Shown: positions 9,346 to 45,606 of the stretch, one piece after another | How the letters are laid out: the number at the start of each line of letters is the position of its first letter | Numbering within the stretch: position 1 is the stretch's first letter | Assembly: GCA_001791325.1 (NCBI GenBank) | Contig: MGEK01000001.1 | Span: forward strand, 1 to 45,606 | DNA length: 45,606 bases | Source: Candidatus Uhrbacteria bacterium RIFCSPLOWO2_01_FULL_47_25 | GTDB lineage: Bacteria; Patescibacteriota; Patescibacteriia; GWA2-46-9 | Reading direction: 5' to 3' | The notes under the pieces: generated by a model | Database searches by the model: none | What the model saw: only the letters and a program-made list of their open reading frames with translations | Told to the model about the DNA's origin: nothing | Position numbers and translations under genes: made by a program

Positions 9346-9432
9346 TGGTGGGCGTGGTGGGACTTGAACCCACATGGACTTGCGTCCATACGCTCCTGAA
9401 GCGTACGCGTATACCAATTCCGCCACACGCCC
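9346..9432 (-). tRNA. tRNA-Leu (anticodon CAG)
   Basis: 87 bases including an encoded CCA. Read on the minus strand: acceptor GGGCGTG pairs with CACGCCC, followed by A and CCA; TG at positions 8-9; D arm starting GCGGAATTGG; anticodon arm TACGC-TTCAGGA-GCGTA giving CAG; long variable arm TGGAC-GCAA-GTCCA typical of class II tRNAs; T arm GTGGG-TTCAAGT-CCCAC. The flanks are unusual: CTCCAAGTGGT before the gene and its complement after it extend the acceptor stem into an 18-bp perfect inverted repeat. The gene lies inside the remains of another tRNA-Leu and would be expressed from that gene's promoter. Confidence 0.95.
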
Positions 9433-9511: not shown

Positions 9512-9561
9512 TTACTGCGCAAATTATAGTGGCGGGGTGAACATACGCGTATGCCAGCTTG

Positions 9562-9597
9562 CCCCGCACCTTCCCGCGAAGTGGGTATGGTGCGGGG
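9562..9597. repeat. CCCCGCACC palindrome inside a tRNA-Leu remnant
   Basis: Arms 9562-9570 (CCCCGCACC) and 9589-9597 (GGTGCGGGG) flank an 18-base loop that holds a weak inner stem. On the minus strand it directly follows GGCGGAA of a tRNA-Leu D arm, and tRNA-like sequence (CTGGCATACGC) follows it, so it appears to be inserted in a D-loop. Confidence 0.75.
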
Positions 9598-9612
9598 TTC
9601 CGCCACCAGGGC
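9598..9612 (-). pseudogene. tRNA-Leu 5' fragment
   Basis: On the minus strand GCCCTGG-TG-GCGGAA matches an acceptor strand, positions 8-9 and the beginning of a Leu D arm. It is cut by the CCCCGCACC palindrome; after the palindrome CTGGCATACGC continues like the rest of a D arm. No anticodon, T arm or matching acceptor was found. Confidence 0.5.
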
Positions 9613-9633
9613 AAATCAATGGGAGGAATTCGT

Positions 9634-9651
9634 CAATTCCGCCACATCCCC
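9634..9651 (-). pseudogene. tRNA-Leu 5' fragment
   Basis: On the minus strand GGGGATG-TG-GCGGAATTG matches a tRNA-Leu 5' end up to the D-loop. It then runs into a small inverted repeat (GGAATT-GACG-AATTCC) instead of the rest of a tRNA. It begins 5 bases after the stop of the solute-binding protein gene, which is on the same strand. Confidence 0.45.
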
Positions 9652-9655
9652 GTAT

Positions 9656-11689
9656 TCACCACTTAAATCGTATTTTGGTTTTAACGTACCATTTGTTTAA
9701 ACCATTAAAGCGATCGGCGGGAGTGGCTATTTCATTAAAATTCAATCCCTTAACTTTGTTGCTGACGGCGTAGCGCCGAACGGGCGTAAATAAAAAAACA
9801 GCCGGCACTTCGTTGGAGATGATTTTTTGGAGTTCGGTATAGGCCTGTTTTTCTATTTCATCGTTAGTGGCTCTGCGTCCGCGTTCAATGGCCGCATCTG
9901 CTTCATGATTACTGAACAGCGACAAGTTTAAACCCGGATCAACTCTTTGTGAAGAGTGCCAGAACGCGTATGGATCGTACGTGGCTCCATAACCTATGGT
10001 GTAGAGTAGCGCTTCGTAAGCGCGCGGGCGCAAAACGGTTCTCTGTACATTATCCGGCGTGGAGGGAGATACCAAATCAATTTTTGTTTCTATGCCGAGA
10101 CGCCGCCATTCGTCCTGAATAAATCGGCCGATGGTTCTATCCGGCTCGCGGTCTATGACCGTGAGAGTGATATTTAGTGTTTCTCCTTTTTTATTTTTGC
10201 GGATAGCGCCAATTTCTTCCCAACCAGCTTTGTTCAATAAAGCCTCGGGGTCTTCTTTCGCGGCAACATCTTTGCCATTTTGTCCCCCCATTTGATTTCC
10301 AATTATCATCGCTTCGTTGATAAATACTTCCGTTACTAGTCGTCGTTTGTCTATGGCATTTTTAAGCGCTCGTCTAACTGTTACGTCTTCAATAGGCGAG
10401 GATTGATTTAGATTAAAAAAGATGACGGTATTTGCGCGAAGCTTAAGTTCACGAATTGTTAATTGTTTGTTGCCCTTAAGTTGCGCCGCGCTAGATTGTG
10501 ATATCATGGACAATCCTTCAACACTTTGGTTACCAAGAGCCTCAAAGGCTTGAGTTTCATCTGGATAGAATTTGAAAGTGAGTCGGTCAATAAACGGTCG
10601 CGCCGTGTCCTCTTGGCCAATGGTATCGGCAGGATTTAGAATATACAATTTTATATTGCCGTTGCTATCTCTTTCCAAGGAATTAAATTGCCACGGGCCG
10701 TTGCCAATCGGTTGTATATTTTCAGTTCGTCCCCGCCACTGGTCGCGCGGTACCTCTTCCCAGATGTGCTCTGGAATAATGCCCGTGGCGAGGAGGTTAA
10801 GAAATCCCTTGTATGGGTCTTTAAGCGTGAAACGAACGGTTCGTTCATCAATTTTTTCAATGGCGATATTTCGGAAACTGGGCCGTAGCGGACTTTTTAC
10901 ATCAGGATCAGAGATACTGGCAAAAGTAAAAACGACATCGTCGGCTGTAAGTGGTTCATTATTGTGCCAATTTAATCCTTCGCGAAGCGTAACAGTATAT
11001 ATTCGTCCGTCTGCGCTAATCGTATAACTCTCGGCCAGGTCAAGTTCTATACCAAGGTTTTCATTGTATCTGAATAATCCGGAGAAAATGAGGCGGGTGA
11101 GATCATTGTCAACAGCCGAATTTGCGGCAAAAATCGGGTTAATGAATTCGGGCTGACCAATCAGCGCTTCAGTGTAGGAACCGCCGCGGGCTGGCAGAGC
11201 CACAATATGCGCGAGGAGGCGGCTGGAGACGAGCCACATTGCCGCCACTACAATTACTATGGCGCAACCAGTAAGAATTTTTTTTTCTAGTTTTGTAAAG
11301 ATTCGTCCGCAGTGCCTAAGTTGTTTTAGGGTTGGCCATTTTTTTGGATTTAAAGAAAATATAAGCTGCCGCTCCAAATCAGCCGTGCTGCGGATGGCCT
11401 GTCCGGAAAGATTCAAAAAACGTTTCAGTTTATCCCGCCAGCCGACAGGCAGGGATTGTTGTTCAGCCGTTGCGTCAGCTTCCGGCTGAAACGTTTCTGT
11501 GGAGTCCCACGGGGGTACCCGCCCGACTGGGTCGTTCGGACGGGTACCTGTGTCACCTTTCGTTTCGTGGTTCCGTGGGGCGGAACCCCGCACCCCGCCG
11601 CGGCGGGGTGCGGGGGTTAATGATTCAGGCGTTAATGGCGATTTGTCATCGTCATTGATGATATTATCTTGTTTTGTTGGCGGCCGCAC
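9656..11689 (-). CDS. Family 5 extracellular solute-binding protein (DppA/OppA type), membrane-anchored
   Basis: 677 residues from a GTG at 11689; no closer ATG exists before residue about 150, so the start is uncertain. Residues 150-175 (ILTGCAIVIVVAAMWLV) form one membrane helix. The rest is a periplasmic-binding-protein type 2 fold of the peptide/nickel family: GGSYTEALIGQPEFINPIF, LAESYTISADGRIYTVTLREGLNWHNNEPLTADDV (shown here in part by its family core TADDVVFTF), and a C-terminal domain ending VKTKIRFKW. The family binds oligopeptides or metals for ABC import, but no permease or ATPase gene is nearby, so in this organism the role is open. The first 90 residues are low-complexity (TPAPRRGGVRG, TGTRPNDPVGRVP) and encoded by several DNA palindromes, so that part looks like inserted repeat sequence. 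secG lies just upstream on the same strand. Confidence 0.88.
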   Translation of the reverse strand: MRPPTKQDNIINDDDKSPLTPESLTPAPRRGGVRGSAPRNHETKGDTGTRPNDPVGRVPPWDSTETFQPEADATAEQQSLPVGWRDKLKRFLNLSGQAIRSTADLERQLIFSLNPKKWPTLKQLRHCGRIFTKLEKKILTGCAIVIVVAAMWLVSSRLLAHIVALPARGGSYTEALIGQPEFINPIFAANSAVDNDLTRLIFSGLFRYNENLGIELDLAESYTISADGRIYTVTLREGLNWHNNEPLTADDVVFTFASISDPDVKSPLRPSFRNIAIEKIDERTVRFTLKDPYKGFLNLLATGIIPEHIWEEVPRDQWRGRTENIQPIGNGPWQFNSLERDSNGNIKLYILNPADTIGQEDTARPFIDRLTFKFYPDETQAFEALGNQSVEGLSMISQSSAAQLKGNKQLTIRELKLRANTVIFFNLNQSSPIEDVTVRRALKNAIDKRRLVTEVFINEAMIIGNQMGGQNGKDVAAKEDPEALLNKAGWEEIGAIRKNKKGETLNITLTVIDREPDRTIGRFIQDEWRRLGIETKIDLVSPSTPDNVQRTVLRPRAYEALLYTIGYGATYDPYAFWHSSQRVDPGLNLSLFSNHEADAAIERGRRATNDEIEKQAYTELQKIISNEVPAVFLFTPVRRYAVSNKVKGLNFNEIATPADRFNGLNKWYVKTKIRFKW
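11514..11548. repeat. Palindrome inside the solute-binding protein gene
   Basis: GGTACCCGCCCGA (11514-11526) pairs with 11536-11548 with one mismatch. It encodes part of the disordered N-terminus (around RPNDPVGRVP), ahead of the membrane helix. Confidence 0.7.
11569..11615. repeat. Two adjoining palindromes inside the solute-binding protein gene
   Basis: A 7-bp hairpin (GGTTCCG-TGGGG-CGGAACC, 11569-11587) abuts a perfect 30-bp palindrome (11586-11615) whose half-site is CCCCGCACCCCGCCG. The outer CCCCGCACC is the same sequence that ends the palindromes in the tRNA loci. It is translated as APRRGGVRG. Confidence 0.8.
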
Positions 11690-44461: not shown

Positions 44462-45316
44462 ATGTTATTGCTAGAAAATTTTTGGGAGCAGGCTAAAAGG
44501 TACTTGTTTCCAGTCTATTGTTTGCGTTGCGGTCTGGAGGGCGATTGGTTGTGTCAGTTTTGTGAGTCCTTGTGCCCGCCAGTGCCGATTCAACGTTGTG
44601 TTTTTTGTCGATCAATCGCGAGGTGTGGGGAAACATGCGCTACCTGTCGCCGTCATCACTATCTTGATGGGTTGATTGTACGTGGCATATATGGAAATTG
44701 GATATGGAGGGGTTTAATTCGCGCCTGGAAATACAAAGGAGCCGAAGAACTTAGCGCTAAGTGCGCTCGTTACTTTGAAGAATGTTTGAATTTATTGCCT
44801 TTAGATAAAGCAATTACCATTATTCCGATACCATTAGCGCGCCTACGAGAACGTGAGAGAGGATTTAATCAGGCAGCCGTGCTGGCCGAATCCATTAGCG
44901 AACGGCTATCCTTGCCCATGGTTCTTGCGCTGAAACGCGTTAGGGAAACCGCCCCTCAATCAAAACTGACCCCCGACAAACGTTTGGAGAACGTTAGAGA
45001 TTGTTTTAAATTTACCCCGTTAGAGAATACCCATCGCTCCGCCAGCTGGCGGAGTGCCGCGGGGTGCAATTCTCCCATACGAGTCCCGTTAGAGACACAG
45101 TCTCTAACGGGACGAGCACGGAGTCTAATGCCCCGTGCAAGTTCTCTAACGGGGTTTATTGGCACCGCCGAGATTAAAGATAAAACCTGTCTTATCATTG
45201 ATGATATAGTTACTACCGGTGCGACGATGGATGCCGCCGCCAAAGAATTGAAACGAGTCGGCGCTTTAAAAGTTTGGGGCTTAGCACTCGTTCGCAGTGA
45301 AGCAAATAGTTATTGA
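44462..45316 (+). CDS. comFC: ComFC-type phosphoribosyltransferase with an in-frame repeat insertion
   Basis: 284 residues. ComF-family proteins carry an N-terminal zinc finger and a PRTase fold and are linked to DNA uptake. Visible: CLRC...CQFC and CVFC...CATC zinc modules, YGNWIWRGLIRAWKYKG, IIPIPLARLRERERGFNQA, LKRVRETAPQSKLTPDKRLENVRDCF (given as VRETAPQSKLTPDKRL), and the PRPP loop CLIIDDIVTTGATM. Between FKFT and FIGTAEIKDKT about 45 residues are encoded by nested palindromes (45014-45155), where the family has only a few residues. The frame is kept and no key residue is lost, so the protein may still work, with an extra loop before the PRPP-binding strand. It is followed by tRNA-Ser sequences. 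Confidence 0.92.
   Translation: MLLLENFWEQAKRYLFPVYCLRCGLEGDWLCQFCESLCPPVPIQRCVFCRSIARCGETCATCRRHHYLDGLIVRGIYGNWIWRGLIRAWKYKGAEELSAKCARYFEECLNLLPLDKAITIIPIPLARLRERERGFNQAAVLAESISERLSLPMVLALKRVRETAPQSKLTPDKRLENVRDCFKFTPLENTHRSASWRSAAGCNSPIRVPLETQSLTGRARSLMPRASSLTGFIGTAEIKDKTCLIIDDIVTTGATMDAAAKELKRVGALKVWGLALVRSEANSY
45014..45155. repeat. Nested CCCGTTAGA-family palindromes inside comFC
   Basis: Outer arms ACCCCGTTAGAGAAT (45014-45028) and 45141-45155 (14 of 15 match). Inside: an 18-bp palindrome CTCCGCCAGCTGGCGGAG (45037-45054, core shared with leuS), a 13-bp stem TCCCGTTAGAGAC/complement (45084-45096 and 45100-45112), and a GCACGG/CCGTGC hairpin. AATTCTC (45069) and AGTTCTC (45140) frame the inner part, as if one element was inserted into another. 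Confidence 0.9.
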
Positions 45317-45390
45317 TTTATCCCGCACCTTCCAGAATACCCGACGGGGTTGATTTAGATTTGGCATAAGTTCTGGGCGAACTTAGGAGC

Positions 45391-45435: not shown

Positions 45436-45472
45436 GGTGGGGTGGCAGAGTGGTTGAATGGGACGGGTCTTG
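45436..45472 (+). pseudogene. tRNA-Ser 5' half, broken at the anticodon loop
   Basis: GGTGGGG-TG-GCAGAGTGGTTGAATGG is an acceptor strand, positions 8-9 and a Ser-type D arm. The anticodon arm starts CGGGTCTTG and then runs into TCCCGCAG instead of the normal AAAACCG. No variable or T arm follows before the next 5' half at 45487. Confidence 0.65.
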
Positions 45473-45486
45473 TCCCGCAGTACGGC

Positions 45487-45523
45487 GGAGAGGTGACAGA
45501 GCGGTTTAATGTACCGGTCTTGA
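45487..45523 (+). pseudogene. tRNA-Ser(UGA) 5' half, broken at the anticodon loop
   Basis: GGAGAGG-TG-ACAGAGCGGTTTAATG then TACCGGTCTTGAA: acceptor strand, D arm and the anticodon stem through TGA. It then switches to CCCCGCACC, the end of the palindrome family seen at 9562 and 11586. No 3' half is found in the window. Confidence 0.7.
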
Positions 45524-45565
45524 ACCCCGCACCTTTGTAAATCTAAAAGACGTTGGACTTCAGGC

Positions 45566-45606
45566 GGTGGGTTGGCAGAGTGGTTGAATGCACCGGTCTT
45601 GAAAAC
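45566..45606 (+). tRNA. tRNA-Ser(UGA), cut by the window end
   Basis: GGTGGGT-TG-GCAGAGTGGTTGAATG then CACCGGTCTTGAAAAC: acceptor strand, D arm, and anticodon stem CCGGT with loop CTTGAAA (anticodon TGA). Unlike the two copies before it, the sequence continues past the anticodon loop into the expected AC, so this copy may be the intact gene. Confidence 0.8.

Follow-up and report, generated by a model that had tools for sequence, protein, structure and literature searches.

Genomic islands and prophages that sit at tRNA genes target the loops of the tRNA; their integrases act at anticodon and T-loops, and a partial copy of the gene at the recombinase site repairs the tRNA. The palindromic elements of Rickettsia are short hairpin-forming repeats scattered through the genome, including genes. 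To our knowledge, no mobile palindrome carries a tRNA between its arms or replaces the gene that it strikes. In fungal mitochondria (atp6 of Allomyces; atp6, atp9, cox2 and nad3 of Glomus) mobile endonuclease ORFs carry replacement gene ends (PMC3630166). The fungal double-hairpin elements and the sponge mitochondrial hairpin elements are short hairpin repeats found between genes and within RNA or protein genes (PMC2800124). The rRNA genes of CPR bacteria contain insertion sequences and introns, many of them at the tops or bases of stem-loops, and the GIY-YIG proteins found among them are confined to insertions that resemble neither class of intron (PMC11270868). In Cleave-and-Rescue gene drives an essential gene is broken by a nuclease, and carriers survive through a linked rescue copy (PMC7951863).

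We analysed a window of 45,606 nucleotides, contig C1 (1-45606) of a genome of 1.197 Mb in 40 contigs that is rated 100% complete (G000). Its size, together with the class-wide survey described below, makes the host probably a CPR (Patescibacteria) bacterium. At its right end lie three tRNA-Ser copies forming a 41-nt direct-repeat family. The outermost, copy 1, is a 5' half of tRNA-Ser(UGA) (45436-45472, forward strand), identical to the intact gene at 33 of 36 aligned positions; its break, read to the exact position, follows CTTG in the anticodon loop, where ...GGGTCTTG gives way to TCCCGCAGTAC. The latter (45473-45483, forward) is the left end of a level-2 insertion, with an imperfect inverted partner, GTGAGACGGGA, at C30:34773-34763(-). 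Copy 2 is a second 5' half (45484-45523, forward) broken after CTTGA in the anticodon loop, which ends in ...GGTCTTGA and continues into ACCCCGCACCTTTGT. The innermost element begins with the left inverted repeat CCCCGCACCTTTGT (45525-45538, forward), a member of a repeat family, whose right partner ACAAAGGTTGCGGGG is found at C30:34808-34794(-). Next comes the start of an intact tRNA-Ser(UGA) (45566-45606, forward), cut by the contig end and continued at C30:34934-34849(-). The original prediction of two 5' halves broken in the anticodon loop and running into CCCGCA-type ends is thus borne out by the letters, except that the second half, placed at 45487, starts at 45484; the third copy, said to be normal, is completed by C30 as an intact gene.

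The end of C30 is the exact reverse complement of the last 85 nt of the window, and from this overlap we infer that the two contigs join. Rightward of the intact tRNA, C30 carries ACAAAGGTTGCGGGG followed by CGAATCTCACCCTCTCCGCC, the 3' end of copy 2, and about 110 nt further on GAATCCTGCACCCACC, the 3' end of copy 1. The acceptor of copy 2, GGCGGAG, pairs at 7/7 positions with CTCCGCC of the 3' half at C30:34793-34774(-), and the 5' half of copy 1 is matched by the 3' end at C30:34662-34647(-). Extension to the right therefore recovers both missing 3' halves on the far side of the intact tRNA and in reverse order, giving half 1, half 2, intact tRNA, half 2', half 1', that is, a nest. The genome has no tRNA-Ser(UGA) besides the intact gene, which must therefore be the working copy. 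The window does end within a repeat, and the two contigs have exactly 85 nt in common, as might be expected of an assembly artefact; such an artefact is hardly credible, however, for nests found at many loci within contigs, also in two other genomes, each with locus-specific sequences. In one of these genomes, G001, several contigs have a tRNA within about 200 bp of their ends, as do C1 and C30 (L101, L160), and nests may therefore often break assemblies.

A second nest in the window surrounds tRNA-Leu(CAG), whose intact inner copy occupies 9346-9432 on the reverse strand. Beside it lies a dead tRNA-Leu on the same strand: a part at 9538-9561 (CAAGCTGGCATACGCGTATGTTCA), between a D-loop palindrome and the broken anticodon arm; the palindrome itself, CCCCGCACC...GGTGCGGGG, at 9562-9597; and the piece that precedes it (GGTGGCGGAA) at 9598-9607. 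Both the part and the palindrome also occur in G002, of the same genus, in the same dead tRNA (locus L232, compared by eye). Another dead tRNA-Leu has left its 5' piece GGGGATGTGGCGGAATTGACG at 9631-9651 (reverse strand), of which the first 18 nt equal the start of the working tRNA-Leu(CAG) of G002. A further palindrome, at 11586-11615, falls within a long ORF on the reverse strand (9656-11689). As had been proposed, the palindromes at 9562 and 11586 have a repeat end in common with the tRNA-Ser nest: CCCCGCACC is present in 6 copies in the window, these palindromes included, where 0.22 would be expected.

Two other repeats lie near the right end of the window. The palindrome at 45009-45160, with ends CCCCGTTAGAGAA/TTCTCTAACGGGG, contains a smaller palindrome of the same family (45083-45113) and sits inside a ComF-like phosphoribosyltransferase gene (44462-45316) whose reading frame stays open. 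TCCCGCACCTTCCAGAATACCC, at 45318-45342 just after that gene, has about nine further copies elsewhere in the genome and represents a further repeat family.

Across the genome, insertions in tRNA genes usually have inverted repeats at their borders; these belong to a few families, CCCCGCACC, CCCCGTTAG, CCCGCCTGCC and CCCGCCTGCCAT, with others seen at a single locus. CCCCGCACCTT is found at 59 exact sites across the genome and its reversed control at none; these sites, and 64 of GGTGCGGGGT, form inverted-repeat pairs with a spacing of about 100-220 bp. The repeat is tied to tRNA genes elsewhere as well, 14 of the 59 CCCCGCACCTT sites lying within 200 bp of one against 1.1 expected, so the association on which the original prediction depended holds. 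Common terminal inverted repeats and many copies give these sequences the form of MITE-like or palindromic elements. About a dozen members of about 205 bp without a tRNA lie elsewhere, and one of 105 bp lies in a dead anticodon loop; the repeat family is thus broader than the tRNA carriers.

The elements of about 205 bp (L090, L092, L096-L100, L104, L106 and others) have ends CCCCGCACCTTT/AAAGGTGCGGGG, a conserved length, conserved internal inverted repeats and a diverged middle, and are often flanked by CATA or TATG, in some copies on both sides. The three tested had no Rfam match. When named genomes were scanned for the end of this element, three single matches in unrelated taxa came up, which we take as chance, and a scan of viral contigs with another protein of the window returned nothing. 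A Y1 (HUH) transposase, the mark of IS200/IS605 or REP/RAYT systems, was sought with PF01797, which has no match in G000. A 1.1-kb stretch between two inverted repeats on contig C7 (L091) was considered as an autonomous element and rejected, as it contains, judged by eye, a ribosomal protein S5-like gene and not a transposase; two further members of the 205-bp family flank that gene.

We next asked how widespread the nests are. ARAGORN reported 48 tRNA genes, about one per anticodon, in the stretches read around tRNAs and repeats; others may lie outside these. The flanks of 44 tRNAs of G000 were compared with each tRNA's own halves. An own 5' half was found on the left of 13/44 and an own 3' half on the right of 14/44, with one or the other at 18/44; debris on the wrong side was found once for each half, and on the reverse strand never. 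When flanks were exchanged among tRNAs, the observed total was never reached in 20,000 permutations (p < 5e-5). Same-tRNA debris is thus present at roughly 40% of tRNA genes (at least 18 of 44) in G000. It is also present at many tRNA genes of the sister species G002, with the same specificity for side and strand. G001, of the same family, holds one nest only, again at tRNA-Ser(UGA), which places the burst mainly in this genus; a search at the level of the order covered the same three genomes and added nothing.

Inner and outer copies are always of the same tRNA kind, and in most nests the anticodon is served by no gene other than the intact copy. Breaks, placed by eye, fall mainly in anticodon loops and some in T-loops and D-arms. 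When the two sides of an insertion are rejoined, Glu-ctc and Gln-ctg of G002 each yield a perfect 5-bp stem and 7-nt loop, with no duplication; at three other loci an extra TGAA and an 11-nt loop result. At Thr-cgt the inverted repeats seem to be paired across levels. In dead copies whole arms have been swapped for GC-rich hairpins of similar size, as in the T-arms of the dead Phe and Asp tRNAs, an exchange that goes beyond what simple insertion explains.

Could the outer tRNAs be functional genes interrupted by introns? The anticodon-loop position and the complementary ends would suit introns, and the tRNA-Asn of G000 does contain a group I intron. Outer copies, however, lack anticodon bases or whole arms, each kind has an intact copy, and none of the nests tested has an intron recognised by Rfam, whose sole find is the group I intron in tRNA-Asn. 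Since essential parts have been lost, we do not read the outer tRNAs as spliced, and consider introns a very improbable explanation. The tRNA-Asn in question, the only one found, lies at G000:C6:35835-36535 (L164; Rfam).

Integration by a tRNA-site recombinase that rebuilds the gene with its attachment-site copy, as genomic islands do, would account for positions in anticodon and T-loops, where such integrases act, and for loci with only 5' debris to the left of an intact tRNA (Ser-gct and Val-gac of G002, and others). Against it, the inserts measure about 100-500 bp, carry a whole tRNA and displace both halves of the host gene, and at the loci read there is neither island-sized cargo nor a recombinase recognisable by eye. 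We therefore judge this unlikely in the extreme, if somewhat less so than introns. The original prediction of a mobile palindrome or integrase that targets the anticodon loop and restores a 5' half holds in that inverted-repeat insertion is repeated and many breaks fall in that loop; T-loops and D-arms are struck as well, it is a whole tRNA that is restored and not merely a 5' half, and nothing in these small insertions indicates an integrase of the usual kind.

Some smaller features of tRNA flanks were also recorded. Downstream of tRNA-Met (L253, L162) a reversed copy of the T-arm and 3' end stands just behind a terminator-like hairpin, and similar reversed T-arm pieces follow other tRNAs. 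In G002, three dead tRNAs, Met, Ile and Val (L242, L239, L245), share one long palindrome (CCAGACAAAAGCGC...GGCGGG), placed in the D-loop between GGTTA and GAGCG, which suggests a D-loop-specific palindrome.

A locus that is empty in one genome and filled in the other is given by tRNA-Gln(UUG). In G000 the gene is plain; its orthologue in G002 lies in three pieces of 34 + 19 + 17 nt, and all 70 nt are identical to the functional gene of G000, in upstream surroundings that are only about 73% identical. Two separate loop insertions divide the G002 gene: the one in the anticodon loop is without a tRNA, and the one in the T-loop carries an intact tRNA-Gln that matches the native gene at 64/71 aligned positions and shows paired differences in both the acceptor and the T stem. 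The identity of the outer pieces to the G000 gene indicates that the old G002 gene was functional until recently. The inner copy has diverged while the outer pieces still match the sister's working gene, and it is thus not a fresh duplicate, the same argument as that used for the fungal atp6 elements (PMC3630166). Gly-gcc of G002 is similar and less sharp, its inner copy being identical to the G000 gene at 48/72 positions. Gln-ttg is the one fully resolved locus at which the inserted copy is diverged and the displaced native part is that of the sister.

These data bear on the strongest alternative, local duplication, in which slippage or template switching at hairpins copies a tRNA, one copy decays and gains palindromes, without any tRNA being carried by a mobile element. 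It would explain why inner and outer copies are always of one kind, why some pairs are near-identical (Thr-tgt, Lys-ctt, Val-cac) and why dead arms are full of palindromes; likewise, the inner Ser-gct of G000 equals the G002 copy, which fits local duplication at that locus. It does not explain the diverged inner copy of Gln-ttg within outer pieces still identical to the sister's working gene. Furthermore, tandem copying does not yield half, whole and half with matched inverted repeats in loops, and elements of the same family without a tRNA are also found in tRNA loops. Local duplication as a general explanation is in our view rather unlikely, while deserving more weight than the other alternatives.

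We therefore favour, with a probability of about 0.62, the reading that the nests are small mobile elements inserted in the hairpin loops of tRNA genes, each carrying a complete, functional tRNA of the same kind between inverted repeats. Insertion, mostly in the anticodon loop and sometimes in the T-loop or D-arm, would kill the host gene and the cargo tRNA would take over, and because the killed gene is replaced, the cell would survive and could not lose the element. Later elements would strike the new copy or the dead halves, building shells within shells. Elements without a tRNA would be lethal unless the target gene were already dead, and carriers of the same tRNA would survive and become indispensable. 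The incoming elements would have come from other lineages, and the self-in-self pattern would reflect selection, since only same-tRNA cargo is viable. Copies from other strains may be brought in by repair that spans the tRNA halves. Against this reading, no tRNA-carrying element was seen outside a broken tRNA, and movement of the cargo itself is putative.

Genes for single-domain GIY-YIG proteins (PF01541) lie within 150 bp of a tRNA in 4/6 cases in G000, 4/6 in G002 and 2/2 in G001 (one degenerate), in total 10/14. Class-wide, 6 of the 29 best GIY-YIG matches lie within 150 bp of a tRNA (P about 3e-6), and most are not near one; about 1.4% would be expected. At Val-cac, Phe and Ile-gat of G002 the nuclease gene has a dead 5' part on one side and, on the other, an intact tRNA of that kind, beyond which lies 3' debris. 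In G002 the GIY-YIG ORF at Val-gac stops at a TAG within the tRNA itself, and at Val-cac the ORF also ends inside the tRNA. The nuclease gene is absent from most inverted-repeat nests, including those of tRNA-Ser and Gln-ttg. By this association the GIY-YIG proteins are likely candidates for the cutting enzyme; those next to tRNAs or inside some nests would make the cut and the element would be copied in by repair. The fuller picture, a natural bacterial break-and-replace selfish element in which a single-domain GIY-YIG nuclease cuts tRNA genes in their loops and is copied in alongside a substitute tRNA on which the host survives, and a cell's own tRNA genes are replaced one by one, repeatedly, by parasite-borne copies, is a tentative one, to which we give less than even odds.

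If our favoured reading is true, mobile elements in these bacteria repeatedly displace essential single-copy tRNA genes and bring the substitute with them, and selfish DNA gains a route to indispensability that requires neither splicing nor an integrase. The unusual surroundings of many tRNA genes here would be explained, and a role would be suggested for the small GIY-YIG proteins that most genomes of the class encode. At empty and filled loci the mechanism of insertion can be read directly. A search of the open-access literature for insertions in tRNA genes that are nested or bear a tRNA gave no account of either.

Fungal replacement gene ends, CPR rRNA insertions and mobile palindromes are already known. 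As in the fungal ORFs, an insert in an essential gene would bring a foreign copy of the disrupted part, and at Gln-ttg the displaced native part remains and matches the sister species, the inserted part having diverged (PMC3630166). Unlike those ORFs, which replace the 3' end of a protein gene only, the elements described here are bacterial, place a whole tRNA between inverted repeats and are repeatedly nested, and most nests are now without a nuclease gene. The CPR rRNA insertions likewise occupy structured RNA genes, yet they are thought to be removed from the RNA, whereas here the host tRNA is dead and replaced (PMC11270868). The likeness to mobile palindromes lies in short hairpin-forming repeats dispersed in the genome, between genes and in RNA or protein genes (PMC2800124). 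In contrast to genomic islands and prophages, a whole tRNA is brought in and both halves are displaced. The logic proposed here is that of Cleave-and-Rescue (PMC7951863); there it is engineered and in animals, here natural and bacterial, with the cutting putative. A bacterial element of the proposed kind, which would bring in a complete substitute tRNA and form nests at a large part of the tRNA gene set, was not found in the open-access literature.
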